This document shows, in pieces, positions 16,217 through 58,823 of a stretch of 64,000 nt of DNA. Location: contig LYSV01000052.1 in NCBI GenBank assembly GCA_001657315.1, positions 1 through 64,000 of the forward strand. Direction: 5' to 3'. Origin of the DNA: Flammeovirgaceae bacterium BBD 1991-12. GTDB taxonomy: Bacteria > Bacteroidota > Bacteroidia > Cytophagales > Cyclobacteriaceae. The position numbers and the translations under genes are program-made. The notes beneath the pieces are model-generated. The model made no database searches. It saw only the letters and a list, made by a program, of their open reading frames with translations, and had not been told where the DNA came from. Positions within the stretch are counted from its first letter, which is position 1; every line of letters starts with the position of its first letter.

Positions 16217-19200
16217 TTAAAAGCCGAGGTTCACACCAAAAACAAGTTGCTTTGATCCGGGATATGCCCCCAGGTCGTATCCCAACAGAACATTGCGGTT
16301 CAGGTCGTTTGCATCCCCGCTACGACTGTTCACCTCAGGATCATATCCGGAATAATTCGTTATGGTGAACCAGTTGATGGCACTTGCATAAACACGCAGA
16401 TTGCTCAGGTGCAACTTGTTCAGGATGCTTCGCGGAAAAGAATAACCGAGTGATATATTCCTGAACCTGACAAATGAACCATCCTCAATGAAGCGATCCG
16501 ATATTCTGTCAAACTGTTGATCAATCCCTACCATGTCGTTAGTAGGGTTGGTAGGGCTCCAGTAATCAAGTGTTTCTCTCAAACCACTTCTGGTATCGCC
16601 CGGTCTTTCCAGCAAGGCCCTGCCAAGGAATGCGATATCATTTCCGATCGACCCCTGTATTGCTACACTCAGGTCAAAGTTTTTATAGGTCCAGGTGGAA
16701 GTAAAACCGAATATAAAATCGGGCAGGGCATTTCCTATCACGACTTTATCATCTTCGTTAATCAAGGTGTCCCCATTAATGTTTGCGTATCGTGCTCCTC
16801 CAGGTGTGGCACCATCCTGAAAAGAATCACCTGCCTCGGTCTCACTTTGGAAAATTCCGTCATAAACGTATCCAAAAAACTGACCAATAGGTTCCCCCGG
16901 TCTTATAATACCATTCGGCCTGAAATCACCTCCAACAGATGATACACTCCCGTCTAAAAAGAGTACTGAATCCTGCCCCAGTTCGGTTACTTCGTTGTTC
17001 AGGAAAGATATATTAGCCGTAAGGTCCCATCGAAGTTGCTGATCTATGACCCGAGCCTCGGTGCTCAACTCCCATCCCCAGTTGTCCATATCACCAACGT
17101 TTTGAACCTGCCTGTCCAGGCCGGCAGAAAGGGGTGGTGTTTGATCAAACAGCAGATCCCTGGTCTTTTTATAATAATAATCCGCTGTAAATGTTATTCG
17201 ATCCTCAAGAATCCCTACATCTATTCCGATGTTGGTCTGAGCCGTTGTCTCCCATCTCAATCCGCCATTGCCCAGTGTAGCCACGTTTATCTCATTGGTA
17301 AAATAATTCTGGCCAACTGTATAACCACCGTTGCCCCCCACCGATAAAGCAGAAAGCGATTGATACTCATCAATGGCCTGACTACCGGTCTCACCGTATC
17401 CGGCTCTCAACTTAAGTAAGCTCAGGAAATCCATATTTGACATGAAGCCTTCTCTTGAGATCATCCATGAGGCTGAGGCTGCAGGAAAAAAGGCCCATTT
17501 GTTATTAACCGCGAACTTGGAAGATCCATCTGCTCTGGCAGAAACGGTGAGCATGTACTTATCATCATATACATAGGCCACCCTTCCAAGAAAAGAGGCA
17601 ATGGTGCTTTCCACCAAATTTGTAGAGGGAGCCACAGCGTTTTCAGCAACAGCCAGGTTGTTAAAACCCAGTGCATCGGTAAAAAAGCCAATCCCTTGAA
17701 AAGAACTGGTATTGGTACTAAAAGACTGTGCTGTAAAGCCTACTACTGAATTTAACCGGTGTTTTTCGATTACTTTGGAGTGACTCAACGTATTTTCTAT
17801 CAACCACTCGTCACGCCTTCTGTTGTTTATATTCGATATACCACCCTCGGCACGCCCTTCCCACAGATCATCCGGAATGTATGTTTTTGTCTCCCTGTAA
17901 TTATTGATATAGGTTCCACTCACCTTCAATGTCAAGCTTGGGATGATGTCCCATTCGAAAAAGAGATTATTCAAAAAATAATTTCTGGTTCGCTCGTTTT
18001 GTCTAATATTTACTATTTCGACAGGGTTGTCCACATCACTTCCCGAAACTTCTTCATTGTATGTAAAGCCGTCCGGAGCAAAAACCGGAACTATAGGCGA
18101 CCAGCGAAGCAAATTGGTACTAAGTCCACCGCCCCTTCCGTTTTGAATGATGCCATTGGTTATTACCCGGAAGGCATTCAAACTATTACCAATCCTGATC
18201 TTATCGCTTATTTCATGATCGATATTAACGCGAACACCGATTTTTTCATAGTTAGAGCTTTTAACAACCCCCTCCTGGTCGAGATATTCTCCAAGAACTG
18301 CAAACCGTGTTTTTTCGTTGCCACCAGTCACAGACAAGTGATAGTTTTGGAAAATCCCCCTTTGGTATACTTCATCCTGCCAATCAGTACCTTCTCCACT
18401 AAGTATGGGGTTATCTATGGCGAAACTTCCTGGATTTGATGGCGAAAATACCGGAGGCACAGTGAATGCAACACTTTCATCCAGCAATTGCAGGTGTTCC
18501 CCGGCATTTAGTACATCCAGTTTATCCAGGATTTCCTGGAAACCTATAGCCGAACTGAAATTAACACTTGTCTTGCCTGATTCACCTCTTTTTGTGGTAA
18601 CTATGATCACGCCATTGGCCCCTCTGGAACCGTAGATAGCGGTAGCCGAAGCGTCCTTTAGCACCTGTACAGATTCAATATCATTGGGATTGAGTGATTG
18701 CAGGTCAGCTCCCAGCACTCCATCGATAACGATCAATGGGTTATTGTCACCCGTAAGGGAGTTATTGCCTCTGATACGAATGGTGGGCGCTGTACCGGGA
18801 GATGGATCTGAATTAGTGATCTGCAATCCGGCTGCCTTACCTGCCAGGGCATGCTCGATCCTTGGCGCGGGCATATTGGCAATGTTTTCAGTGCCAATGG
18901 TGGCTATCGACCCTGTGAGGTCTTTCTTTTGCTGTGTTCCATACCCTACTACTACTACCTCCTGCAGTGTTGAGATATCCGGAGTAAGAAGTATGCTAAA
19001 GGTGGTTTGCGATCCTATGGTCACTTCTTCGGTGGCATAGCCGATAAAGGAAAACACGACGACTTCCGCATCATCAGGTACTGACAGATTGAAGTTGCCG
19101 TCTACATCCGATACAGTACCTATAGTGGTACCTTTCACAAAGATGTTCACCCCCGGCAATGCATTGCCTGATTCGTCTGTTACTTTTCCCGTGATCACAC

Positions 19201-19696
19201 GGTCCAGTTGTAACGATCCATCAGAAGCATCGGAGGGTATACGCGCCAGCATGGTCCGGTTCCCTGCCCTGGGATAGTCGTCTTTAGCTGATTTTTTATC
19301 AAGGCGTTTCAGGCCCATCTTCTTTTTCTGAATGAGGTAATAGTTTTTGTCTATTCGTTTCATGCTCAGCCCCATGGGAGCCAAAACGTCTTTCAGCAGG
19401 GATTCGACCTGTTTCATTTTCACCCTGTCGCCTTCAGGGAATGAAAGCTCCTCCACTTTCAGGCTCTTGCCCAGGACGAGCTCGGTATCATAGCTGAGAT
19501 TGATCTCGTAGGTGGTCTCTATCCATTTCAGCAGATCGGAAAGACTTCTTTTTTCCGATACATTTGCTGAGACGAGATCAGCGGCATCATGTTGAGTCAC
19601 GGACGCAAGGCCCTGACCATGGCAAATCAAAAAGGAACCGAGAAAAGCCAAAAGCAGGCCAATGGTCCCTCCCGTTGTTCGTAAATTGTTTTTCAT
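16217..19696 (-). CDS. SusC-type TonB-dependent transporter with STN domain (left locus)
   Basis: A 1159-residue outer-membrane oligosaccharide importer. In order: signal peptide, an STN domain (about 48-125), a carboxypeptidase-D-like regulatory domain (about 168-238, VITGKVTDESGNALPGVNIF), a TonB box region (LQEVVVVGYGTQQKKDLTGS), the plug (LKDASATAIYGSRGANGVIIVTTKRG) and a 22-strand barrel ending in VFGVNLGF. The STN domain is the part that contacts a FecR anti-sigma factor in the periplasm, and a FecR gene lies just upstream (58-base gap), followed by an ECF sigma gene. Import and induction are therefore probably coupled. It forms a pair with the SusD at 14694-16193. Confidence 0.95.
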   Translation of the reverse strand: MKNNLRTTGGTIGLLLAFLGSFLICHGQGLASVTQHDAADLVSANVSEKRSLSDLLKWIETTYEINLSYDTELVLGKSLKVEELSFPEGDRVKMKQVESLLKDVLAPMGLSMKRIDKNYYLIQKKKMGLKRLDKKSAKDDYPRAGNRTMLARIPSDASDGSLQLDRVITGKVTDESGNALPGVNIFVKGTTIGTVSDVDGNFNLSVPDDAEVVVFSFIGYATEEVTIGSQTTFSILLTPDISTLQEVVVVGYGTQQKKDLTGSIATIGTENIANMPAPRIEHALAGKAAGLQITNSDPSPGTAPTIRIRGNNSLTGDNNPLIVIDGVLGADLQSLNPNDIESVQVLKDASATAIYGSRGANGVIIVTTKRGESGKTSVNFSSAIGFQEILDKLDVLNAGEHLQLLDESVAFTVPPVFSPSNPGSFAIDNPILSGEGTDWQDEVYQRGIFQNYHLSVTGGNEKTRFAVLGEYLDQEGVVKSSNYEKIGVRVNIDHEISDKIRIGNSLNAFRVITNGIIQNGRGGGLSTNLLRWSPIVPVFAPDGFTYNEEVSGSDVDNPVEIVNIRQNERTRNYFLNNLFFEWDIIPSLTLKVSGTYINNYRETKTYIPDDLWEGRAEGGISNINNRRRDEWLIENTLSHSKVIEKHRLNSVVGFTAQSFSTNTSSFQGIGFFTDALGFNNLAVAENAVAPSTNLVESTIASFLGRVAYVYDDKYMLTVSARADGSSKFAVNNKWAFFPAASASWMISREGFMSNMDFLSLLKLRAGYGETGSQAIDEYQSLSALSVGGNGGYTVGQNYFTNEINVATLGNGGLRWETTAQTNIGIDVGILEDRITFTADYYYKKTRDLLFDQTPPLSAGLDRQVQNVGDMDNWGWELSTEARVIDQQLRWDLTANISFLNNEVTELGQDSVLFLDGSVSSVGGDFRPNGIIRPGEPIGQFFGYVYDGIFQSETEAGDSFQDGATPGGARYANINGDTLINEDDKVVIGNALPDFIFGFTSTWTYKNFDLSVAIQGSIGNDIAFLGRALLERPGDTRSGLRETLDYWSPTNPTNDMVGIDQQFDRISDRFIEDGSFVRFRNISLGYSFPRSILNKLHLSNLRVYASAINWFTITNYSGYDPEVNSRSGDANDLNRNVLLGYDLGAYPGSKQLVFGVNLGF

Positions 19697-19754: not shown

Positions 19755-20744
19755 TCAATTGTTCTCAACAATTTTCACATTATAAGTTTGGGTGAGGGCT
19801 TCTTTAAGAATGTCAATGTCATTGGCCAGAAACGTTCCCCTGAACTTTTTTCGCTTGACGGAATCGTTGGGAAACTGTATCTCAAGCCCGTAGGTATCTC
19901 TCAGGATTTGTGATATCTCGATCAGCGGAGTACCTTCAAATATCAACTGATTGTCCTTCCAGGAAGACTGCAGATCAGGCTTCTCCGTACGGTGGATCAC
20001 TGTATTACCCCTTACCTTGTCAAAGGATACCAGATCGCCCGGGATCATCAGCACTTCGGCCGTATCTGAATTCTGAGGAATGTATAGCCGGACTTTACCT
20101 GTATTCAACACCACTTCTGTCTCTTCATGCCGGCTGGTGACATTGAATGTAGTGCCTAGTACTTCTACTTCCAGTTCGTTAGTATAGACCGTGAATTTTC
20201 TTGCCTCGCCCTGATCCTTGATGTGTCTGATATCAAAAAAAGCCTCCCCTTCCAGAAATACTTCCCGGTCTGAGGAAGATTGCCAGTCGCCTGACAAACG
20301 CAATTTGCTGTTACCATTCAATGTGACCTCCGAGCCGTCAGGAAGTGTTATTTCCCTGATCTCTCCATAGGCTGATGCATAGACCCTGGTGTCGAGTTGC
20401 AGGTACAGCAAATAACCCGCGAGCATTAGCGCTCCAATGAAGACAGCGGCTGCTTTATAGTAGAAAGATGAACTGAAAGGCCTTTTGTTGCTGACCATAG
20501 GTGCAGCGGTATCCTGACGTACCTTTTTCCAAACCTCCACAAGAGCATCGTTCGCCTCAGGGTTGTTGGTAAATCCAAGCAGCAGAATCGTTTCACGGGC
20601 CTCAGCAATGATCTCATGGTGTTCAGGATTCTGCTCCATCCAGCTGTGCCAGTACTTATCCTTCTCCTTGTTGGGTTCCAGCACCCAGGATTGAAAGTGT
20701 TTGTCCAATACGAAATCCCTGACAGTATAATGGCTTTTTTTCAT
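19755..20744 (-). CDS. FecR family anti-sigma factor (left locus)
   Basis: A protein of about 329 residues with a cytoplasmic N-terminus (MKKSHYTVRDFVLDKHFQSW), one membrane span (AAAVFIGALMLAGYLLYL) and a periplasmic FecR domain (REITLPDGSEVTLNGNSKL, EVFLEGEAFFDI, LEVEVLGTTFNV, VVLNTGKVRLYI) ending in a DUF4974/STN-like segment (LIFEGTPLIEISQILRDTYG). It should hold the neighbouring ECF sigma at the membrane until SusC signals. I chose ATG at 20744, because an upstream in-frame ATG at 20927 would add 61 residues with no family similarity. Confidence 0.92.
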   Translation of the reverse strand: MKKSHYTVRDFVLDKHFQSWVLEPNKEKDKYWHSWMEQNPEHHEIIAEARETILLLGFTNNPEANDALVEVWKKVRQDTAAPMVSNKRPFSSSFYYKAAAVFIGALMLAGYLLYLQLDTRVYASAYGEIREITLPDGSEVTLNGNSKLRLSGDWQSSSDREVFLEGEAFFDIRHIKDQGEARKFTVYTNELEVEVLGTTFNVTSRHEETEVVLNTGKVRLYIPQNSDTAEVLMIPGDLVSFDKVRGNTVIHRTEKPDLQSSWKDNQLIFEGTPLIEISQILRDTYGLEIQFPNDSVKRKKFRGTFLANDIDILKEALTQTYNVKIVENN

Positions 20745-21075
20745 GGCTTTTGCGCTAATTCTTGTTTTCCAAGATCCCCGAAGGACATGATCGGTTCCTT
20801 CGTGTTTCTCTTCACTGACAAATGAGATAGGAAAATCTAATCGCTGTTGTAAAAAAAATTTTGGAACATACCAGTATATGCCTCGCCTCATTCGGTACAC
20901 AGGCAAGGGAAGGGGATGAATATTCAATACGCAATAGAGTGTTGAGGATAGTCTGTGAGGATACAGACCATAGATAAGAGAATTAACCCTATAAAGTAGG
21001 TCTCAGGACCGATCGCCTGACCTAAGACCAGTGCCTTATCAGTGCCTGTGTTGCAGGATGTATGTGCCTCTATGG
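20745..21075. other. Sigma-FecR spacer, no gene seen
   Basis: Between the FecR start at 20744 and the sigma stop at 21076 there are 331 bases. An open frame continues upstream of fecR but encodes nothing recognisable. An imperfect hairpin (GGTC, then TCAGG paired with CCTGA, then GACC) lies at about 20998-21028. It has no T-tract, so its role is unclear. A fecR promoter may be here. Confidence 0.4.
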
Positions 21076-41564: not shown

Positions 41565-43802
41565 TCATTTGTCCGTTACGGAAGGAGGAAATGATTTCGG
41601 ATCAGTGCCCCAGTCCGAAGGTGTGGGACCCATGATCAGTTCCAATACAGCTCCTTCCATTATTTCCCTATGCCTGAACCATGTCCGCTCCAGAGGCTGC
41701 CCGTTCAGGCGGGCTTTTTGTACATAAATGTTTTTATCACTCAGCCCCTGGCATTCAATGGTAAATGTTTTTCCATCGCCCATATCCAGGGTACTCTTTT
41801 CAAACACCGGCGTGGTGATCAGATAAACATCCTGACCGGCCAAAGGGAAAAAGCCCATGGCATGAAAGACCCACCAGGCAGACATGGCTCCTGAATCATC
41901 ATTTCCGGGGATCCCGTCCGGCGCATCTGACCAGGACTCATTGCTGATCACCTTGATCCTTTCGGCTGTTTTATCGTACCGGCCGGCCCACAAATAGAGA
42001 CAGGGTGTGAGGAAATCCGGCTCATTGGTCACATTGAAGTACTTTTTGTCAAAAAAATGATCAAGCCTACGGATAAAAATGTCCTCTCCACCGCATTTCC
42101 GGATCAGTCCACGAACATCATGTGGTACGTAAAAGGAATAGTCCCAGGCAGTGCCCTCATACATCTGTACATCCCAGTAGCCCCATTCCATGGGATCATG
42201 ATCTTCCTTCCACTTTCCATCCCGGAACCGGGGCCAGATGAATCCGGTGAATCCGTCATGCTCATATGGCCGCCAGAGATTTTCCCAGTTCTCCGACCTT
42301 TTCAGATATTTCCGGTAGTCTTCATTTTTTTCCATGGCCTTTGCCAGGTTGGCTATGGCGTGATCATTGGCACAGTACTCTACTGTGCGGGAGGCAGATC
42401 GGTAATGTTCACAGGGCACATAACCGATATTCTTATAATCGTCTATCCCTCCCCGGCCTTTTTGTTCATGATCATCCCCCGGGTCTACTTCAGCATTTTT
42501 TATCATGGCTTCATAGGCCAATTCATAGTCAATGCCTTCTATCCCCTTGAGGTAGGCCTCCGTGATGAGCATATCACAATTGCTCCCCCCCTGTGTACGT
42601 CCGGTGAAGTTGCCTGACCGTGCATCCGGCATATACCCCTCATGGCGGTAGATATCGACAAGCGAACGGATCATGTCCCGCTGGCGGTCTCTCATGATGA
42701 GGGTAAAGAGTGGATTGGTGGTACGGTAGGTATCCCAGATGGCGTAGAAATCATCATAGTAAGGTTCCTCAGAATCCCACAGTGGATTTTCACCGTTACG
42801 GTCGGTGGGCATGAGCATGGTATGATAAAGACCTGTATACAGGATCTTCTGCTGGGTTTTGGTACCTCCTTCCACCATGACCCTACCCAGCAACTCATTC
42901 CACATTGCACGGCTATCTGATATGGTTTTTTCAAAATCCCAGTGCGGGATCTCCTGTGTTGCGTTCATTTTTGCCTTTTCTATACTAATGAATGAAATAC
43001 CCACCTTCGCCTGTATGGCCTGATCCTTTGAGGTGTTGAAGGAAAACCAGGCACCGGCACCTTTTCCCCCCGCCATTTCTAGGGTATTGCCGTCATTGAT
43101 CTTCCTGCTATCGTCCCATGTCCCGTATTGTTTGGCAGGTGTATCAAAAACAGTATGAAAATATACCGTGTAGGCAGGACCAAGATTCCAGCCTCCTTTC
43201 ACCCGCGTGTATCCGGCTATTTCGGTAGAAGACAGGATATGCACTTCGCTGCCCACAAGATACTGAGCCTCTCCAAACCGGTACCTGTCCCCACCATATT
43301 CGCGGCCGGTGTAGAGTAAATGACCAGCATCCAAAAGAATGTGAGCCTCACCCTGCGGGAATGTGTATTTGTGAAAACCGGTACGACGGCTGCTGGTAAG
43401 ATCTACCTGTACGCGGGCATCTTTCAGGTATACACTGTAATGACCGGCAGTACAGGTCTCTTTTTCACGCGACGAAGCATAATCCTGAACATTAAGAGTT
43501 CCGGATTGAGCGGTAAGCAATACATTGCCATACTTGGCGCCACCTCCTGTACCACTGGTGTGGGTATGACTGAAACCTTCTATTCGTCCCTCTTCACGAA
43601 ACCCTGAATTGGAGTGCCCTTCATAATCCGGGCCGAGCTTCACCATACCAAACGGCTGGCAGGCTCCAACAAAAACATTACCACCCCCCTGTGAACCAAT
43701 AAATGGATCCACATATTGTGTGTAATGCTGAGCCTCTTGTGCAGTAACGATCAGCGGGATTAGTAGTGAGCCAAAACCTGTTATCAATGTCTTTATTTTC
43801 AT
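41565..43802 (-). CDS. GH92 family glycosidase (divergent active-site loop)
   Basis: A 745-residue GH92 protein with a cleavable signal peptide (to about TAQ at 20-22). Family blocks: VDPFIGSQGGGNVFVGACQP, FSHTHTSGTGGGAKYG, YAIWDTYRTTNPLF and GIPGNDDSGAMSAWWVFHAMGFF. The acid motif is present as TNEPDF (Glu594), but the two histidines that follow it in the other GH92 here (NEPSHH) are replaced by DFLTP. Those histidines help shape the sugar-binding pocket in characterised mannosidases, so this paralogue may have a different linkage or sugar preference. It lies between GH2 (upstream, 21-base gap) and a sulfatase (downstream). Confidence 0.9.
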   Translation of the reverse strand: MKIKTLITGFGSLLIPLIVTAQEAQHYTQYVDPFIGSQGGGNVFVGACQPFGMVKLGPDYEGHSNSGFREEGRIEGFSHTHTSGTGGGAKYGNVLLTAQSGTLNVQDYASSREKETCTAGHYSVYLKDARVQVDLTSSRRTGFHKYTFPQGEAHILLDAGHLLYTGREYGGDRYRFGEAQYLVGSEVHILSSTEIAGYTRVKGGWNLGPAYTVYFHTVFDTPAKQYGTWDDSRKINDGNTLEMAGGKGAGAWFSFNTSKDQAIQAKVGISFISIEKAKMNATQEIPHWDFEKTISDSRAMWNELLGRVMVEGGTKTQQKILYTGLYHTMLMPTDRNGENPLWDSEEPYYDDFYAIWDTYRTTNPLFTLIMRDRQRDMIRSLVDIYRHEGYMPDARSGNFTGRTQGGSNCDMLITEAYLKGIEGIDYELAYEAMIKNAEVDPGDDHEQKGRGGIDDYKNIGYVPCEHYRSASRTVEYCANDHAIANLAKAMEKNEDYRKYLKRSENWENLWRPYEHDGFTGFIWPRFRDGKWKEDHDPMEWGYWDVQMYEGTAWDYSFYVPHDVRGLIRKCGGEDIFIRRLDHFFDKKYFNVTNEPDFLTPCLYLWAGRYDKTAERIKVISNESWSDAPDGIPGNDDSGAMSAWWVFHAMGFFPLAGQDVYLITTPVFEKSTLDMGDGKTFTIECQGLSDKNIYVQKARLNGQPLERTWFRHREIMEGAVLELIMGPTPSDWGTDPKSFPPSVTDK

Positions 43803-43823
43803 CTTTTTCTTTTTAACTGTTCA

Positions 43824-47348
<3,525 letters not shown>

Positions 47349-49601
47349 TCAGTCAAAACTTAAGATAGGGGCATTCAACGGATGCGATTCCCTGCTGAAA
47401 AAACTCACATGGGTACGATTGGGCTTTTCCAGCCGGAAAGAAACCTGCCCGGTGCTTTCCTTTTTTTCCTTTATAACTGACGTTACGTCAAACGCAATCC
47501 ATTCACCCGGAGGAGGCACCGCAGCTATTGAGAGACTGTCTTCTTTCGGTGGAGCATTATCCCAGGATATCTCATTTTCAGTCCATGAGTGATCATCTAT
47601 CGTATATAGGATACATTTATTGCCAAGATGATCACTGTTCCGGTCTACCTTAAGTCGTAATTCACATTTGCTGAATGCCTGCGGTATTTCTTCCAGATCA
47701 AATTTGAGATAAGCATGCCGAATGGCTTTGTTGCCTCCTACCTTGGTTTCCAACACAGGCAATGAACCAAAATTCTTACTGCTGTAACGCTTGTGAAAGC
47801 CTCTGATGTAGGCATCTTCGGAAACCACACTGTATGCCTGAGTATGTGGCACCATGATCTCCTGCTGAACCGTGCTAAACACACCAGCATCATCCATAGC
47901 CGTAATCCGGACGATATTCAGCCCTGACGGAGGATCATTCCACGAATAGCTTGTGGCACCCTCCGCCGGAATTTCAGCCAGCAGGTTGGAACCGTTATAA
48001 ATCCTGCTCACCTGGATATTCCCGACTCCTGTATTCACGTTACCGGCAATGACTATTTTACCTCCCTCATAAGTCAATGGCCCAAGGCTTATCTGCGGAG
48101 GGATACGCTTTTGCTCATTGCTCCATATCATGAAAAGGTAGGTCTGATCTTTCTCCAGGTTCCTGATAGTAACAGACTGACCGCCATTCAGGGAATGAGT
48201 CTTCATGGGCTTTGGCACTCCACTGGACCCAGGTCCGCTTTGCCATGAAAGCGCATCAAATACGTCCAGTTTTTTAGCGCCTGCGGGAAGATCATTAATG
48301 GTAAAGGTATCACTGGCTATGGAAGACCATCCCTCCCAGTTTTGCCAGACAATGAGTCGATTGCCACTCCCTTCCAGTTTAAACACTTCCTGATCATGGT
48401 CGATATCAGTGAAGGACATACCATTGGTCAGCCAGAAATTCATCTGAAGCACATTGGCGGCCAACCTGCCCTCGTAGGGAGCCTTGCTTTTGGCCAGGCC
48501 CCAGTTCCGGTTGCCCAGGTAGGTTGTGAGTGGCTCCCAGGCCAGCACATAATCCGCTACGGGCTGGCCTTTATTGCCTGTCACCGTCAGGTTATCCCAG
48601 AGTGCGGCCATCATGCCATAGGCCTTGTTCTGCTCGGACTCCTCACCATAGTGTTCTGCCATATTGGCTGTTTGGTCCACTCCCTGTACATCATCCGTTT
48701 GATTATCTGACACATAGGAACCTGCAAAACAGAACTCCAGCACAGCGAAATGGATATCCCGCGTAATACCAAGGGTCTCTTTTGCACGATCAAATATCCG
48801 CTGGGCTGATCTGCTCTTTTTGAAATCCCGACGATTGACATAGGGATGTAAATACAGGGCATGCAGTGTACCATCATTGTACAATGGCACAATTTCCCTG
48901 ATCAGGTCAATAGCTCCGAGGTCAGGCGGATCTGCAAGTACGCTTTGCCATAGAGGAAATGTGAAGCCACCGGGGCTTACCTTTAAGGCAGGATCTACCG
49001 AATGAACGCCATCGGCCAGGCCATGGAGTGCACTACGGTAGGCTGCAGCAGGCATAGTACCAGGATGTCTTCTTTCGTGCCACTGAGGCTCATTGAATGC
49101 CATGTATTCCGTTATGCCCCAGTCCTTTATTCCTTTTGAAAGAAGAAAACTGCTGTTGGGACGAAAGCGCTCTGCAAAGGCCCTGCCTATGGCAAACCAT
49201 TTCTCATAGCTTCCCACCGGATGGGCCGAATCAGGATAGTGATTAAAGAGCAGTAAGGGCTTAACACCGTATTTGTACCAGCCCAGGACCCTATCCAGCT
49301 TGTCGGTAACAGGCACTCCGTTCTGCCAGTATTCATGATGATTCAGATTACCGCGGGCGGCACCGTAGCCAAGGATATTGGCAGCTTCATAAATATTGAT
49401 ACTGGCGGGGTTGTCAAAGACCGCATTATTGGTGGAACCTCCTCCCAATCTACCAGCAATCCCCTGACGGAACGGTACAAGATTTATAACATTTTGCTCT
49501 GTTTTTTGCTCATCGTCTGAGCTATTACAACTGTCGAATACCAGTAAACATGCAATGGCAAGAGTTAAAACCGATATCCGATATATTTTTATTATTTCCA
49601 A
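47349..49601 (-). CDS. Clan GH-A glycoside hydrolase with CBM96-like module (lipoprotein)
   Basis: A 750-residue lipoprotein (FDSC, Cys25) sharing its catalytic domain with 36005-39940. EYMAFNEPQW gives Glu171 as acid/base candidate and FAVLEFCF gives Glu289 as nucleophile candidate. GLADGVHSVDPALKVSPGG and VTGNKGQPVADYVLAWEP are shared landmarks of the pair. A beta domain (to about 500), one Ig-like segment (ISLGPLTYEGGKIVIAGNVN) and a C-terminal DNRLRE/CBM96-like module (SEDAYIRGFHKRYSSKNFGS) follow. Family assignment is unresolved (GH39- or GH86-like). Anchored at the membrane, it may process fragments made by the larger secreted paralogue. It lies 17 bases downstream of GH110. Confidence 0.8.
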   Translation of the reverse strand: MEIIKIYRISVLTLAIACLLVFDSCNSSDDEQKTEQNVINLVPFRQGIAGRLGGGSTNNAVFDNPASINIYEAANILGYGAARGNLNHHEYWQNGVPVTDKLDRVLGWYKYGVKPLLLFNHYPDSAHPVGSYEKWFAIGRAFAERFRPNSSFLLSKGIKDWGITEYMAFNEPQWHERRHPGTMPAAAYRSALHGLADGVHSVDPALKVSPGGFTFPLWQSVLADPPDLGAIDLIREIVPLYNDGTLHALYLHPYVNRRDFKKSRSAQRIFDRAKETLGITRDIHFAVLEFCFAGSYVSDNQTDDVQGVDQTANMAEHYGEESEQNKAYGMMAALWDNLTVTGNKGQPVADYVLAWEPLTTYLGNRNWGLAKSKAPYEGRLAANVLQMNFWLTNGMSFTDIDHDQEVFKLEGSGNRLIVWQNWEGWSSIASDTFTINDLPAGAKKLDVFDALSWQSGPGSSGVPKPMKTHSLNGGQSVTIRNLEKDQTYLFMIWSNEQKRIPPQISLGPLTYEGGKIVIAGNVNTGVGNIQVSRIYNGSNLLAEIPAEGATSYSWNDPPSGLNIVRITAMDDAGVFSTVQQEIMVPHTQAYSVVSEDAYIRGFHKRYSSKNFGSLPVLETKVGGNKAIRHAYLKFDLEEIPQAFSKCELRLKVDRNSDHLGNKCILYTIDDHSWTENEISWDNAPPKEDSLSIAAVPPPGEWIAFDVTSVIKEKKESTGQVSFRLEKPNRTHVSFFSRESHPLNAPILSFD

Positions 49602-49618
49602 GCCTCTGTCAGATTGTG

Positions 49619-51481
49619 TTAATGCCCGTTTTCGGGTTTATCCCTGAACCCTTTGTTGTTCTCTACTCTACCGGAAGCCCTGCTGCCCGCATCCATTGCA
49701 ATATCTGCTTCAGGTTTTCCCACATAATGATTATCCGCTATACTCACGTTCTTACAGTTTTCAATCTCAATCACCGGTAGGTCAGGCGAAAGCGGCTCAA
49801 AAGTTGTAGTCCTGACTAAGGTATTGTTCTCAAACGCCAACCCGTCTACTGAAAAGGCATAAAGAATACCCCGGTCAAAGGTTCTGATCACATTGTCAGT
49901 GATCCTGATGTTGTGATTGTAATATTCCGGAGAGCCGGTTTGAGGCTGCTTTGCCTGGGGGCGGATAACGATCACAGGAAATCCTGCGCCTACACGGCAC
50001 AGATCAATAAACTCATTATGGCTGATCAAAACATCGTTGACATTTCCGGATTCGTAAAACCAGATCATGTCCCCCCAGTTTCTCACCCCCTGCATGGAAG
50101 AGTAGAATTTGTTATGACTTACCACGGACTTACCCGGGGTTTTCACCAATACACTCCGGGCCCAGTTTTTCCCTACAGAACATCCCGTCATTTCCAGCTG
50201 AGCGGTCCATGAAATGTTATCCAGACCCATTTCGGGCAGTACCCCCTCGAGTGGCTCCTGTGCCACTATCTCGAAATACTGATCGTTAACATGACGAATG
50301 CCCCTGACCATAATATGCCCACCTGTAGGCAGCAATGTCTTTTTGTCGATAAGCCGTAGGGTATCTCCGGGGAAAGCAAAAGCGTAGCCTGTTTGCTGGC
50401 GATGCATCATTCTGCCTGTCAGTGTATATTGATCACGCTGCCCCTCTACCTCCGCATAGTTGCCGTGAATATTCAGTCCATCATCCAGTTGGCTTTCAAG
50501 GACGCAGTTCTTTAGCACCACCTTCCCCCTGCAGTTGACAAAATGGGTGGCATCTGCCGTCACAGAGACCACTCTATCGGTATCCGGAGTAGGTACGACC
50601 TTTACACTGTCCAGTGTAATATCACTGCTGAGCTCACCTATTATGCCCATACCGGCCGCGGAAAAGACGCTGACATTGGACAGTAAGATCCGGGATGATT
50701 GATTTATGTGTATACCCGGTGCCGATCGGTTTATCCTGTATTCGAGGTTCCTCCACTTGGCAATGAAATCCCATCCCGGCTGCGGCAAGGGTTCTATCCT
50801 GTTCTGCACGCGTATGACATGGTTTCCAAGATCCTCGATCTGATAGTGCTGTTCCCCTTTGGTGTTCCAATGCTTTGGTGTGATCCCAATCAGGTTATAA
50901 ACGGGAAAGCCATTAACAGGGTCAAACCAAAAATTTTTGGAGATCATGTATTCCCTGCCATGGCTTTTGAAAAGAATATCATTTTTTACCACCCGGTATT
51001 CCACCTCATCCGTGAATTTCAGATCAAATGACTGCTCCTCAGGGTCGACGGCTATTACCTTACCCTGTGCATAAAAGGGTTTATCCCAATCGAATTCCAG
51101 GTTTTTGATGGTGATGTTCGTGGAGTTTTCAATAACGCTGCTCATCATCACCCCATGCAGAATGATACGGGAGCCTTGTCCATCGATCTCCAGGTTATGT
51201 TGATCTATGACGGGCAGTGCTATTCGCTTGATACCATTTTCATTGTTACTTATGGCCAGGTATTTCTGAAATGCCTTATCGGGGTAACAGTGATAGGTAG
51301 ATTTTGGAATTACAAGCTTGCTGGCCTTCTGCTCCCTGCAGGCCTGCAAGGCTTTGTAAAATGCAAGACTTGCATCATCATACGTGGAGAGATAATACTC
51401 AAACTGGATGGTTTTCTGTGCAAATGCCACCTGACAAAAAGCAAACAGAAAGACCGATACCCATAAACAAACCGATTTCAT
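49619..51481 (-). CDS. GH110 family alpha-1,3-galactosidase
   Basis: A 620-residue right-handed beta-helix protein with a signal peptide (MKSVCLWVSVFLFAFCQVAF). GH110 hallmarks are the opening DDASLAFYKALQACREQKAS, LVIPKSTYHCYPDKAFQKYL, AISNNENGIKRIALPVID, LEIDGQGSRIILHG and SQLDDGLNIHG (Asp333, Asp334, candidate catalytic acids). Family members are inverting exo-galactosidases for alpha-1,3-linked galactose, known from gut and marine bacteria. As the first enzyme after susC/susD in the right locus, it says that the target carries alpha-1,3-galactose caps or backbone units, complementing the beta-galactosidase further down. Confidence 0.9.
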   Translation of the reverse strand: MKSVCLWVSVFLFAFCQVAFAQKTIQFEYYLSTYDDASLAFYKALQACREQKASKLVIPKSTYHCYPDKAFQKYLAISNNENGIKRIALPVIDQHNLEIDGQGSRIILHGVMMSSVIENSTNITIKNLEFDWDKPFYAQGKVIAVDPEEQSFDLKFTDEVEYRVVKNDILFKSHGREYMISKNFWFDPVNGFPVYNLIGITPKHWNTKGEQHYQIEDLGNHVIRVQNRIEPLPQPGWDFIAKWRNLEYRINRSAPGIHINQSSRILLSNVSVFSAAGMGIIGELSSDITLDSVKVVPTPDTDRVVSVTADATHFVNCRGKVVLKNCVLESQLDDGLNIHGNYAEVEGQRDQYTLTGRMMHRQQTGYAFAFPGDTLRLIDKKTLLPTGGHIMVRGIRHVNDQYFEIVAQEPLEGVLPEMGLDNISWTAQLEMTGCSVGKNWARSVLVKTPGKSVVSHNKFYSSMQGVRNWGDMIWFYESGNVNDVLISHNEFIDLCRVGAGFPVIVIRPQAKQPQTGSPEYYNHNIRITDNVIRTFDRGILYAFSVDGLAFENNTLVRTTTFEPLSPDLPVIEIENCKNVSIADNHYVGKPEADIAMDAGSRASGRVENNKGFRDKPENGH

Positions 51482-56200: not shown

Positions 56201-56711
56201 TAATGGTCCCATTTGTTGTTCCTTTTTCCAGCACAGACGCTCCTGGAAGGGGTTCATTGTCCTCTCCCGTCACTTTTCCGGAAACGCTGTGACTTCGTAC
56301 CTCAGTGGTTTTCATTTCATCCACCGGTTTTTCATTCCCTACACGTGAGTAGATATGAATGTTGGTGTTGATCCGCCTGAATTTGAGTTGTGTTTGCCTG
56401 GAGATCTTTTCCAGTATGATACCCAGAGAATTTTTGCCATCAATACTGACCAACCTGTTGGGGATCATTATTTTGGAATTGTATGCAAAATGGAATTCGG
56501 TTTTGCTCTCAATGATATCAAACACTTCCAGGATTGGGGTATTTGAAACCCTAAGGTCCAATTGGATATCGTAGATGCTTTTCTTTTGGGCGTTGGATTC
56601 ATTTGCCAAAATCAATGACGCTGTTACAGACTGGATTACCATTAAAATGAAAACAAATCTTGTCATCGCGGCAATTGTTGATAGGATCTGACTTCGTATA
56701 TGTTTTTTCAT
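53244..56711 (-). CDS. SusC-type TonB-dependent transporter with STN domain (right locus)
   Basis: A 1155-residue outer-membrane importer. Order: signal peptide with a long hydrophobic core (AAMTRFVFILMVIQSVTASL), STN domain (about 45-127, ILEVFDIIESKTEFHFAYNS), carboxypeptidase-D-like domain (about 140-205, GKVTGEDNEPLPGASVLEKG), TonB-box region (LQEIIVVGYGEQKKANLTGA), plug (LKDASAAAIYGSRAANGVIL) and barrel ending VVFGANITF. STN plus adjacent fecR and sigma genes indicate trans-envelope induction. The barrel differs clearly from the left-locus SusC, so the two probably import different oligosaccharides. Its leader overlaps a predicted antisense RNA. Confidence 0.95.
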   Translation of the reverse strand: MKKHIRSQILSTIAAMTRFVFILMVIQSVTASLILANESNAQKKSIYDIQLDLRVSNTPILEVFDIIESKTEFHFAYNSKIMIPNRLVSIDGKNSLGIILEKISRQTQLKFRRINTNIHIYSRVGNEKPVDEMKTTEVRSHSVSGKVTGEDNEPLPGASVLEKGTTNGTITDYDGNYSLVVSDENAVLSFSFIGYLSEEIAVGSRSVIDVTMTPDIETLQEIIVVGYGEQKKANLTGAVSTISTDLLEERPASNATNLLAGLAPGLSATQTSGGIAGGNDPIIRLRGVGTLNNADPLILVDGTPASITDVNPTDIENISILKDASAAAIYGSRAANGVILITTKSAQSGLKIDYHSFAGYQEVGTRPDLVTDPVLWMELKNEGRTNGGLNPLFSKADIDDFRANRGTDPLRYPETDWFDELVGDRAFMMSHTFTINAGTEKSRIRTSFNYLNQDGIGLNNEMDRYSLRINNENDLSDNFTLGTNLFVAWSDIVPIVEGEVSNVNTQQGGFQHMGMQNMPVIPTIQAPDGRWGGPQVDGAGTTTNWVALASVIDDQIERQNAQGQLYATWNIVEGLQLDGRVALNYNNNRRNQFVGLIPTGSEWDFRNEIGAPTDRGESAYSGLNTTTLLTNYVTLTYNKTIGNGHNFSVLGGYQLDKFRGENMEGSIREFASNSTRVLRAGLESPGVDQTITRWALLSYFGRFNYNFKEKYLLEANVRLDGSSRFREGKKWGTFPSFSAGWRISEEPFLQEATFLDELKLRGSWGELGNQQINAYPYQAVYSVNETYSFGGNVALGIAQTDIANPDIEWETTTTWNIGLDLSLLEGKINLSADYFNRETDGILVRQEIPAYLGDKRAPFENLAVVVNDGFEIDLSHRNNVGDFSYQIGANFTMQNNELTDYLSDVPFISSNSGVITVLQEGQSINAFYGYRNIGIYQDSAQIANGPQYNQDPSPGDLIFEDNNGRSGEGTLTGVPDSLINDDDRTIIGNQVPKYLFGANFAFGYKNFDLSIILQGVFDVDTWTGLSGAFWPLEKEDRGQIHEVWLDRWTPENPSGELPRIVSNAAYSQNELPSSFFVEDNSFLRIKNVTLGYNLPSHLLEKLRVSRLRVYTSVDNLATFSEFTRKWGWDPERAPNQFDVRIPNVRTVVFGANITF

Positions 56712-56712
56712 T

Positions 56713-56720
56713 TAACTTTG
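56713..56720 (+). promoter_or_regulatory. Candidate -7 element for antisense RNA
   Basis: TAACTTTG matches the Bacteroidetes -7 consensus TAnnTTTG on the plus strand, starting two bases upstream of the minus-strand susC start codon. A convincing -33 TTTG at the right distance was not found, so the call depends on the terminator about 90 bases downstream. An ACTTTGA-containing direct repeat follows at 56715-56743. Confidence 0.4.
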
Positions 56721-56727
56721 AATTAGA

Positions 56728-56835
56728 GTTGAACTTTGATTTAGCTCGTCTCTCGTGTTGTTCGCGCACTGTCGCCAAACTGAGCATTGAACAAGATGAG
56801 AGATCCACGGCCAGGACTTGTTCCTGGCCTTTTTT
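56728..56835 (+). ncRNA. Predicted antisense small RNA opposite the susC leader
   Basis: Between fecR and susC (148 bp, both minus strand) the plus strand carries a -7-like motif (56713-56720) and a canonical terminator (56809-56835). A transcript starting about 7 bases after the motif would be about 108 nt and complementary to the susC 5' leader. No open frame explains the terminator. Established knowledge: Bacteroides loci with sigma/FecR control often encode a small RNA (DonS type) antisense to the susC leader at this same place, and it represses the locus. The equivalent gap in the left locus (58 bp) has no such structure. Start point is approximate. Confidence 0.5.
56809..56835 (+). terminator. 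Canonical plus-strand terminator between fecR and susC
   Basis: GGCCAGGA (56809-56816) pairs with TCCTGGCC (56822-56829) across a 5-base loop and is followed at once by six T residues (56830-56835). All neighbouring genes are on the minus strand, so this terminator serves no annotated gene and implies a plus-strand transcript. Confidence 0.7.
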
Positions 56836-56859: not shown

Positions 56860-57903
56860 TCATAGGCCTGAATTAGTCTGTTTGTTGATGATTACCTTTT
56901 TTCCCTTTATCTGAAATTTAAAGCCCGAGGCATAGCTCAGGCCGTTCAAAACTCCTTGTAGTGAGGCATTCTCATAACGTCCGGTGTACCGGCCGGACAA
57001 CAAGCTCTCATCAGCCACCTCAAACTCAACGCCGTACCACTTTTTCAGGTAGCTCAGCACTTCGGGAACGGGTGTATTATCAAAAATGATCAAACCATCT
57101 TTCCATCCGATTACTGCCTCTCTTGAGAAAGGTGTGACAAACAGTCTTTTTTCTCTGGAATTAAAAACGCCCTGCTGATCGGGTACCAATGATGCCTCAT
57201 GACCGCTGTGGTCTGAAACCAGCACCTTTCCGGTTATCACTGAGATTGAGGTTTCTGGTTCATCAGCATACGACCTGATATTAAAAGAAGTGCCAATCAC
57301 TTTCGTAGTGGTGTGCAACGTATGTATGAAAAAAGGTCTGGCAGGATCCTTTTCAACTTCGAAAAAAGCTTCACCAGAAAGGTAAACCTCTCTGTTCACG
57401 GCAAAAGAATCGGCATAGCTAATCTCACTTTCAGCATTCAGAATGACCTTTGAGCCGTCCGGCAATCTCATGGTAAGCTTTTGCCCTGATTCGGTAAATT
57501 TTCGGACCAGCTCAGTCCTCGCTTTTTCAGCGGGCGGAGATAATGAGTTTTCCTTGAGCAAAACCGAGCTTACGATCAGCGCGAGAATGACAGCAGCAAT
57601 TCCGGAGATTCGGTAAAATGTCCGGGTTTCCCAAAAGTGCAGGGATTGTGATTTTTTTTGCCTGTTATAATCCACGATTCCGGATAGGATCCGGTTATAA
57701 TCCTGATCAGGCAGCTGGAAAGTGTTTTTGTATTGGGTGGATAAAATAACCTGCCGGGCCCATTCTACCTCCTTTTTGCGTTCCGGATGGGTCAGAAGCC
57801 ATTTTGACCAATAGTGATCTGTTTCGGTGTTCGGATGCACCACCCAGCGGACAAAACTTTCGTTTCCTATTAAATCCAAAATCTGATCTTTATGATCCTC
57901 CAT
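56860..57903 (-). CDS. FecR family anti-sigma factor (right locus)
   Basis: A 347-residue inner-membrane protein. The cytoplasmic N-terminal part (FVRWVVHPNTETDHYWSKWL) resembles that of the other FecR. One membrane span follows (ISGIAAVILALIVSSVLL), then the periplasmic FecR domain (LTMRLPDGSKVILNAESEIS, EVYLSGEAFFEV, TTKVIGTSFNIRSY, SVITGKVLVSD) and a C-terminal DUF4974/STN-like segment (FDNTPVPEVLSYLKKWYGVE). It should restrain the ECF sigma encoded upstream and respond to the STN domain of the neighbouring SusC. Confidence 0.93.
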   Translation of the reverse strand: MEDHKDQILDLIGNESFVRWVVHPNTETDHYWSKWLLTHPERKKEVEWARQVILSTQYKNTFQLPDQDYNRILSGIVDYNRQKKSQSLHFWETRTFYRISGIAAVILALIVSSVLLKENSLSPPAEKARTELVRKFTESGQKLTMRLPDGSKVILNAESEISYADSFAVNREVYLSGEAFFEVEKDPARPFFIHTLHTTTKVIGTSFNIRSYADEPETSISVITGKVLVSDHSGHEASLVPDQQGVFNSREKRLFVTPFSREAVIGWKDGLIIFDNTPVPEVLSYLKKWYGVEFEVADESLLSGRYTGRYENASLQGVLNGLSYASGFKFQIKGKKVIINKQTNSGL

Positions 57904-58169: not shown

Positions 58170-58823
58170 TTACATCTGACCCGACATAAAAAGCAGGAGC
58201 ACGGATAAAACTCGCTTGTAGGGAGATAACTTTTTGGTCAGTGATTTTAGCGCCCGATAGGTGAGTGCCCTGGCTGATTTCACTTTGATGCCCATAATAT
58301 CGGCTATTTCCGTGTAGGACATACCTTCGTAGAAATGCAATAAAATAACTTCTTTCTGTTGAGCCGGTAAGCGATTCAGTTCTTTTTCTATGATGGCATA
58401 GTCTTCCTTTTCAAGCGTTTGTGAGAGTGAAATACTGCTGGCAAAAAATCCCAGTTCCAATCCTCCTTCCATCAATTGAAACTGTTCTTCCTTTTTCAGT
58501 CCTTTAAAAATCCTTCTTTTCAACGAGGAGAACAGGTAGGCCTTGACCGAGCGTACCTCTGACAATCTCTTTCGACGATCTATTAACTCATAAAACAGCT
58601 CCTGCACACAATCACTGATATAGTCTCTTCTTGTGGTAAACTGGCATCCATAGTTATAGAGAATATCAGCATACTTCCGATATATGTATATAAGGCTCTG
58701 CTCATCACCCCTTTTGAAAAGCTCCCAGATAATGTGCTCATCTCTTTCATGAAGATGACCTGAAGTTGCTTCTTTTCCCATCTCGGGATCAGCGGATTTG
58801 GATATATATTTATCGCTCTTCAT
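58170..58823 (-). CDS. ECF-type RNA polymerase sigma factor (right locus)
   Basis: A 217-residue sigma factor. Region 2: SLIYIYRKYADILYNYGCQF, SDCVQELFYELIDRRKRLSE, SVKAYLFSSLKRRIFKGLKK. Region 4: LPAQQKEVILLHFYEGMSYT and EIADIMGIKVKSARALTYRA. It heads the right locus and is separated from fecR by 266 bases in which I see no gene. It has the same length as the left-locus sigma but little sequence identity, as expected for independent signalling units. Confidence 0.93.
   Translation of the reverse strand: MKSDKYISKSADPEMGKEATSGHLHERDEHIIWELFKRGDEQSLIYIYRKYADILYNYGCQFTTRRDYISDCVQELFYELIDRRKRLSEVRSVKAYLFSSLKRRIFKGLKKEEQFQLMEGGLELGFFASSISLSQTLEKEDYAIIEKELNRLPAQQKEVILLHFYEGMSYTEIADIMGIKVKSARALTYRALKSLTKKLSPYKRVLSVLLLFMSGQM

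Follow-up and report, generated by a model that had tools for sequence, protein, structure and literature searches.

A small antisense RNA is very probably encoded opposite the start of a susC-like gene in the DNA analyzed here, a stretch of 64,000 nucleotides from Flammeovirgaceae bacterium BBD 1991-12 (contig LYSV01000052.1; hereafter the window). We consider it likely that this is a DonS-like cis-antisense RNA of about 111 nt, read from the plus strand of the gap between fecR and susC and repressing susC, and the predicted folds suggest that repression probably proceeds through loop contact.

The fecR-susC junction in the window

The host genome comprises 8.59 Mb on 282 contigs. For the four genes of the locus, Pfam calls sigma70 regions 2 and 4, FecR/FecR_C, TonB plug/barrel, and SusD. 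The features relevant for the argument are the following:

58170-58823, minus strand: ECF-type sigma factor gene (Pfam Sigma70 r2 and r4_2)
56860-57903, minus strand: gene of the FecR anti-sigma factor (Pfam FecR and FecR_C), with its stop codon at 56860-56862
56861-56867, minus strand: GCCTATG, a motif enriched on the sense strand close to the fecR stop
56809-56835, plus strand: intrinsic terminator of the predicted antisense RNA, with the stem-loop at 56809-56829 and six T at 56830-56835
56773-56778, plus strand: CGCCAA in the central loop, a candidate kissing loop complementary to 5'-UUGGCG-3' of the susC leader
56748-56804, plus strand: long central hairpin of the predicted antisense RNA (MFE fold), with the same predicted fold but other stem letters in the orthologous locus L039
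56727-56746, plus strand: small 5' hairpin of the predicted antisense RNA (MFE fold)
56725-56835, plus strand: predicted antisense RNA of ca. 111 nt, its start placed from a box at -12 to -5
56713-56720, plus strand: antisense -7 box TAACTTTG, a TAnnTTTG match adjoining the susC start codon
53244-56711, minus strand: gene of a susC-like TonB-dependent receptor (Pfam TonB plug and barrel, TIGR04056), with its ATG at 56709-56711; the putative antisense target

Genes of these kinds are numerous in the genome, which holds 44 FecR_C matches (42 of them above the Pfam cut-off); SusC matches number at least 56, a lower bound as scoring covered the best 56 of 173 candidates. Six of the FecR_C matches sit in frames of 900-1200 codons and are probably the first domain of susC genes. 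Downstream of susCD, the region 41565-51481 encodes GH92, a GH2 beta-galactosidase, CBM96, and a GLAA-B-type beta-helix protein; this locus may be a polysaccharide utilization locus (PUL) for galactose- and mannose-containing glycans.

The preliminary description of this DNA had singled out a plus-strand terminator with an 8-bp GC-rich stem and six T between fecR and susC, preceded at about 90 bases by a TAnnTTTG match, and both elements are present as described. The terminator stem GGCCAGGA/TCCTGGCC has 8 bp, six of them G-C, and encloses a 5-nt loop. When a terminator is strictly defined as an unbroken stem of 8 bp or more with 6 or more G-C pairs, followed by 5 or more T, the window holds no second one on either strand, and none arose in 60 dinucleotide shuffles. 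A looser scanner found 11 terminators versus 9.4 expected in 10 kb, i.e., it worked at chance level, so that its hits are informative only through the strength of the one at 56809-56835. The box TAACTTTG lies 88 bases from the stem. Matches to TAnnTTTG are fewer in the window than expected by chance (18 versus 38), and the box alone therefore proves nothing; the argument must rest on comparison. If the box occupies positions -12 to -5, as given for this promoter element in the available part of PMC9723704, the antisense RNA would start near 56725 and thus 13 nt short of the susC AUG.

The plus-strand RNA of 56727-56835 is predicted to fold with a minimum free energy of -40.9 kcal/mol (z -4.57), and its central hairpin contains three plus-strand G-U pairs, which are A-C mismatches on the mRNA strand. 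Neither the window nor any of 20 related loci contained an Rfam family at the gathering cut-off. The minus strand of the same segment also folds better than its shuffles (-35.8 kcal/mol, z -3.12) and the terminator hairpin begins 30 nt past the fecR stop, which would both agree with a different reading, namely that these hairpins act on the sense strand, either by stabilizing the 3' end of the sigma-fecR message or as an attenuator in the susC leader, and that there is no antisense RNA. On its minus-strand side, however, the hairpin at 56809-56829 is followed by no T-run, and a sense-strand terminator at this place would cut off susC.

A second fecR-susC pair in the window (fecR 19755-20927, susC 16217-19696) had been said to lack such an element. 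This holds true: its gap measures 58 nt and contains neither a strict terminator nor the sequence CAAAnnTATG, the form in which the box is found at other gaps (see below). On the antisense strand of this locus, TAAGTTTG is present at 19783-19790 (plus strand) within the 3' end of fecR, where there is no strict terminator.

Antisense signatures at other fecR-susC gaps

For comparison, two sets of gaps were compiled. The discovery set started from 99 fecR loci, of which 93 were parsed (six failed), 60 of them with a gap in the range of 60-260 nt; 10 of 17 loci from named genomes were added, while the other seven were left out where no long frame ended close upstream or where its end was not FecR-like by eye. 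Removal of five near-duplicates left 65 gaps, i.e., 22 from the genome itself, 15 at the level of the genus, 21 at that of the phylum, and seven from named relatives. For the replication set, a separate draw was made from four families, some gaps of which were already part of the discovery set; 103 loci were taken, 99 parsed, and 85 fell into the length range, giving 80 non-redundant gaps. The next gene was defined as any open frame of at least 100 codons, so a few may not be susC. The loci L173, L174, and L278-L301 (24 loci) stayed outside all counts, as did further susC relatives, of which 8 of 14 could be parsed; the box was present in two of these, and L311, one of the two, duplicates the L093 junction.

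Under a simple terminator rule, 13 of the 22 gaps of 60-260 nt in the genome itself had an antisense and five a sense terminator, and the corresponding fractions among the 70 gaps first collected were 40/70 and 9/70, the latter being a point in favor of sense-strand hairpins. Stricter readouts gave a more one-sided picture. We found 53 strong hairpins in the discovery set (6.7 in shuffles) and 66 in the replication set (7.1 in shuffles), and scored a T-tail where at least six T occur in the 8 bases past the hairpin or, for the antisense strand, at least six A in the 8 bases upstream. The preliminary description had proposed comparing the gaps of relatives for a plus-strand terminator, and this comparison gave antisense to sense T-tails of 19:0 in the discovery set and 28:0 in the replication set, with no sense-strand tail among all 119 hairpins. 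Wobble positions lean the same way: among 81 in the discovery set, G-U pairs fell on the antisense and sense strands at 73:8 (323:170 in pooled shuffles), and in the replication set at 88:16 (311:193 in pooled shuffles), which makes 161:24 for both sets against shuffle ratios of 1.6-1.9:1. We had also considered the stability of the whole gap as evidence for one strand, and rejected it: the antisense strand is favored in 93% of the 145 gaps and in 90% of shuffles, since the two strands differ in composition.

The strand bias of wobbles and tails indicates that it is mainly the fold of the putative antisense RNA that is kept. Hairpins that serve the sense strand, whether at the end of the fecR message or in the susC leader, fit poorly with this bias and with the missing sense tails, and we regard this explanation as very unlikely. 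Conversely, the RNA of roughly 100 nt in the position of DonS that had been predicted from the window gains support from the antisense T-tails, the G-U wobbles, and the fixed -7 box at other gaps.

This box takes the exact form CAAAnnTATG, overlaps the T of the susC ATG, and occurs in a single register in 47 of 145 gaps (1.7 in shuffles), that is, in 24/65 discovery and 23/80 replication gaps, including 10 of the 22 in the genome itself; the box of the window is displaced from the common register by two bases. On the sense strand, the last 60 bases of the 145 gaps contain no box, compared to 3.4 in shuffles. We also looked for a conserved -33 element (TTTG) upstream of the boxes and did not find one. 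Box and antisense-terminator hairpin (here with at least five A of 8) occur together in 25 gaps, the box alone in 22, the hairpin alone in 38, and neither in 60, a weak association that is not significant (p 0.11); the Fisher tests assume independent pairs and gaps and are thus optimistic.

The same features are scarce at other junctions. Among 66 other codirectional gaps of the genome, one of which (L012) is actually a fecR-susC gap, antisense to sense T-tails were 0:2 and wobbles 18:25, and the exact box was present in three, all of them at unrelated genes. A further control comprised susC genes of the genome without fecR, meaning that no FecR_C match adjoins them (34 of 35 loci parsed, taken from the 56 best of 173 SusC candidates); here the box was found at 0/34, tails were 2:0, and wobbles 14:10. 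Directly before other start codons the box occurred in 1 of 200 cases, and at neighbors of fecR with gaps below 60 nt in 0 of 40 (13 + 17 + 10). L151 and L161 are susC loci without a recognized fecR upstream that nonetheless have an A-run followed by a hairpin resembling an antisense terminator. Within the family f23, which lies outside the class of the window, neither box nor hairpin with six A was found in the 11 replication gaps; on visual inspection, a bulged hairpin missed by the hairpin rule follows an A-run in L114, L116, and L175.

These controls also bear on the possibility that CAAAnnTATG serves FecR-controlled susC genes as a signal for translation start or as a site for protein binding, and not as a promoter. 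The A-rich context seen at the 200 other starts, the lack of a conserved -33 element, and the weak link between box and hairpin would all agree with this, and since the box sits in such an A-rich start context, a partial role in translation could exist. Against it stand the absence of the box from the 34 other susC starts and the 40 close neighbors of fecR, and the match of the 47 boxes to TAnnTTTG at one exact register. We judge this explanation unlikely and continue to read the box as the probable -7 element of an antisense promoter.

Another motif near the end of fecR lies on the sense strand. GCCTATG is present in 20 of 145 stretches of 330 nt each in this region (ca. 5.7 expected from genome background) and in none of them on the reverse strand, and in 19 of the 20, the frame that starts at its ATG runs for nine codons or fewer to a stop (raw count). 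The motif may contribute to the susC promoter or be a very short leader frame.

Apical loops and a possible course of repression

Certain short sequences recur in the apical loops of the hairpins. TTGGCG is found in 12 gaps versus 1.9 expected; it occurs 13 times in all, 12 times within an apical loop, compared to a baseline of 12%; TTGGGG lies in such a loop in 7/7 cases. Enrichment of the complementary CGCCAA is weaker than that of TTGGCG (11 gaps versus 4.8 expected; 8/12 in apical loops), and CCCCAA lay in an apical loop in neither of its two occurrences. These motifs were picked after viewing the discovery set, so that the replication set is the fair test, and there the loop patterns TTGNNG and CNNCAA were counted eight times each, against 0.03 and 0.05 in shuffles.

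According to the predicted fold, the loop of the susC leader in the window is UUUGGCGA, which contains the YUNR of U-turn kissing-loop systems and is shared in this genome by the locus of the window (L005) and L011. In the part of PMC4485353 that we draw on, loop-loop systems are described as ubiquitously having a YUNR U-turn in one of their two loops. A second loop class, TTGGGGA, is present in six gaps (L004, L007, L012, L023, L045, and L249) versus 0.85 expected, with differing stems; the first four are from the genome itself and have UUGGGGA in common.

Among the 17 loci listed from named genomes, the closest susC is that of Agaribacillus aureus (Cytophagales) with 74% identity. In this orthologous locus (L039), the loop CTGTCGCCAAACTGAG is kept while the stem arms differ in sequence and remain paired according to the predicted fold; the box has the same offset from susC as in the window. 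Similarly, the pair of L011 and L093 retains a loop of its own on partly changed stems. The predicted terminator stem of L039 is broken up by a nested palindrome in the region L039:3775-4000. The palindromic piece resembles the end of an insertion element.

Conserved loops matter for another explanation, in which the plus-strand terminator merely ends stray antisense transcription coming out of susC and the resulting short RNA has no regulatory function. Antisense transcription is indeed pervasive in a flavobacterium, where 287 antisense transcripts were reported and offered as a possible start for functional studies (PMC9723704, available part), and a -33 element is not conserved at our boxes. 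However, stray transcription would leave unexplained why apical loops are conserved and why a second hairpin is retained in orthologues, and such signals are rare at susC genes of the same genome without fecR (two A-run hairpins and no box in 34). We find it quite unlikely and favor a regulatory antisense RNA.

From these patterns, we infer transcription of the antisense RNA, repression, and a kissing step. Transcription would begin at the sigma-A-type -7 box beside the susC ATG and stop at 56809-56835, and the RNA would pair with the susC leader as far as the border of the ribosome site, ca. 13 nt before the AUG, sparing the AUG itself. First contact would be made between apical loops, UUGGCG of the leader with CGCCAA of the antisense RNA, and the duplex may then extend toward the start codon, where it would block translation or expose the message to RNase and decay. 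SusC would thus stay low until transcription driven by the sigma/FecR pair outruns the antisense RNA; as sigma-driven transcription of susC would also cross the antisense promoter, this could sharpen the switch.

Known antisense RNAs and wider implications

DonS and the PUL-associated cis-antisense RNAs of Bacteroides are said to have been described by Cao et al. in 2016. In the excerpted text of PMC7366714, DonS is one of a family of RNAs of 78-128 nt encoded opposite susC homologues, with ten more in B. thetaiotaomicron, and a canonical sigma-A promoter precedes 52% of the cis-antisense candidates of this organism, which makes it common but not universal. The RNA predicted here would resemble this family in being antisense to, and divergently encoded from, a susC homologue and in its predicted length of 111 nt. 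Of a promoter of the sigma-A type, the window has the -7 box, and a -33 element is not conserved at the boxes. It differs in that it comes from a non-gut genome with its closest named relative in the Cytophagales and in being known from sequence alone. A 2024 atlas of B. thetaiotaomicron lists 32 such RNAs with both correlated and anti-correlated pairs and calls for functional work (PMC10994844, in the part available).

Two other systems invite comparison. The FopS sRNAs of B. thetaiotaomicron likewise act near the start codon to repress the translation of susC, but they form a paralogous family that uses a shared seed on several susC mRNAs, while the RNA of the window would be encoded opposite its own target (PMC11697453, as far as excerpted). 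Inc RNA or RNAI of I-complex plasmids exerts antisense control by a kissing loop, as predicted here (PMC10724649, available part), and a title in the reference list of the same source (Asano 1998) names the antisense target loop of ColIb-P9 as 5'-rUUGGCG-3', the very letters found in the leader of the window. Those RNAs control plasmid copy number through rep, and the likeness is limited to the loop with no claim of common descent.

Among the matches listed in a search that left most subscription journals outside, no paper dealt with antisense RNAs at fecR-susC junctions outside Bacteroides, and in the literature covered, as far as its accessible parts go, repressing PUL antisense RNAs are described only from Bacteroides. 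The kind of RNA is thus known, and the comparative description of fecR-susC gaps is new. Its results suggest that switches of the sigma/FecR/susC type frequently include such RNAs, and it seems likely that antisense control as known from gut Bacteroides is more widespread. That the antisense signatures are almost confined to fecR-linked susC genes in this genome points to antisense control as an element of the cell-surface signaling cassette and not of susC genes generally.

A bolder extension, which we put forward tentatively and consider rather doubtful, is that across much of the Bacteroidota, soil and marine members included, the sigma/FecR/SusC cassette has as a standard component an antisense RNA of the kissing-loop type, with apical loops taken from a small shared set (UUGGCG, UUGGGG, and CGCCAA), so that the RNA of one locus could make first contact with the leader of another. 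If this were true, antisense RNAs with shared loops would form a layer of cross-talk between sugar-uptake loci. The defined promoter register and loop offer a precise target for mutation in a tractable member of the Bacteroidota and would allow such RNAs to be counted from genomes.
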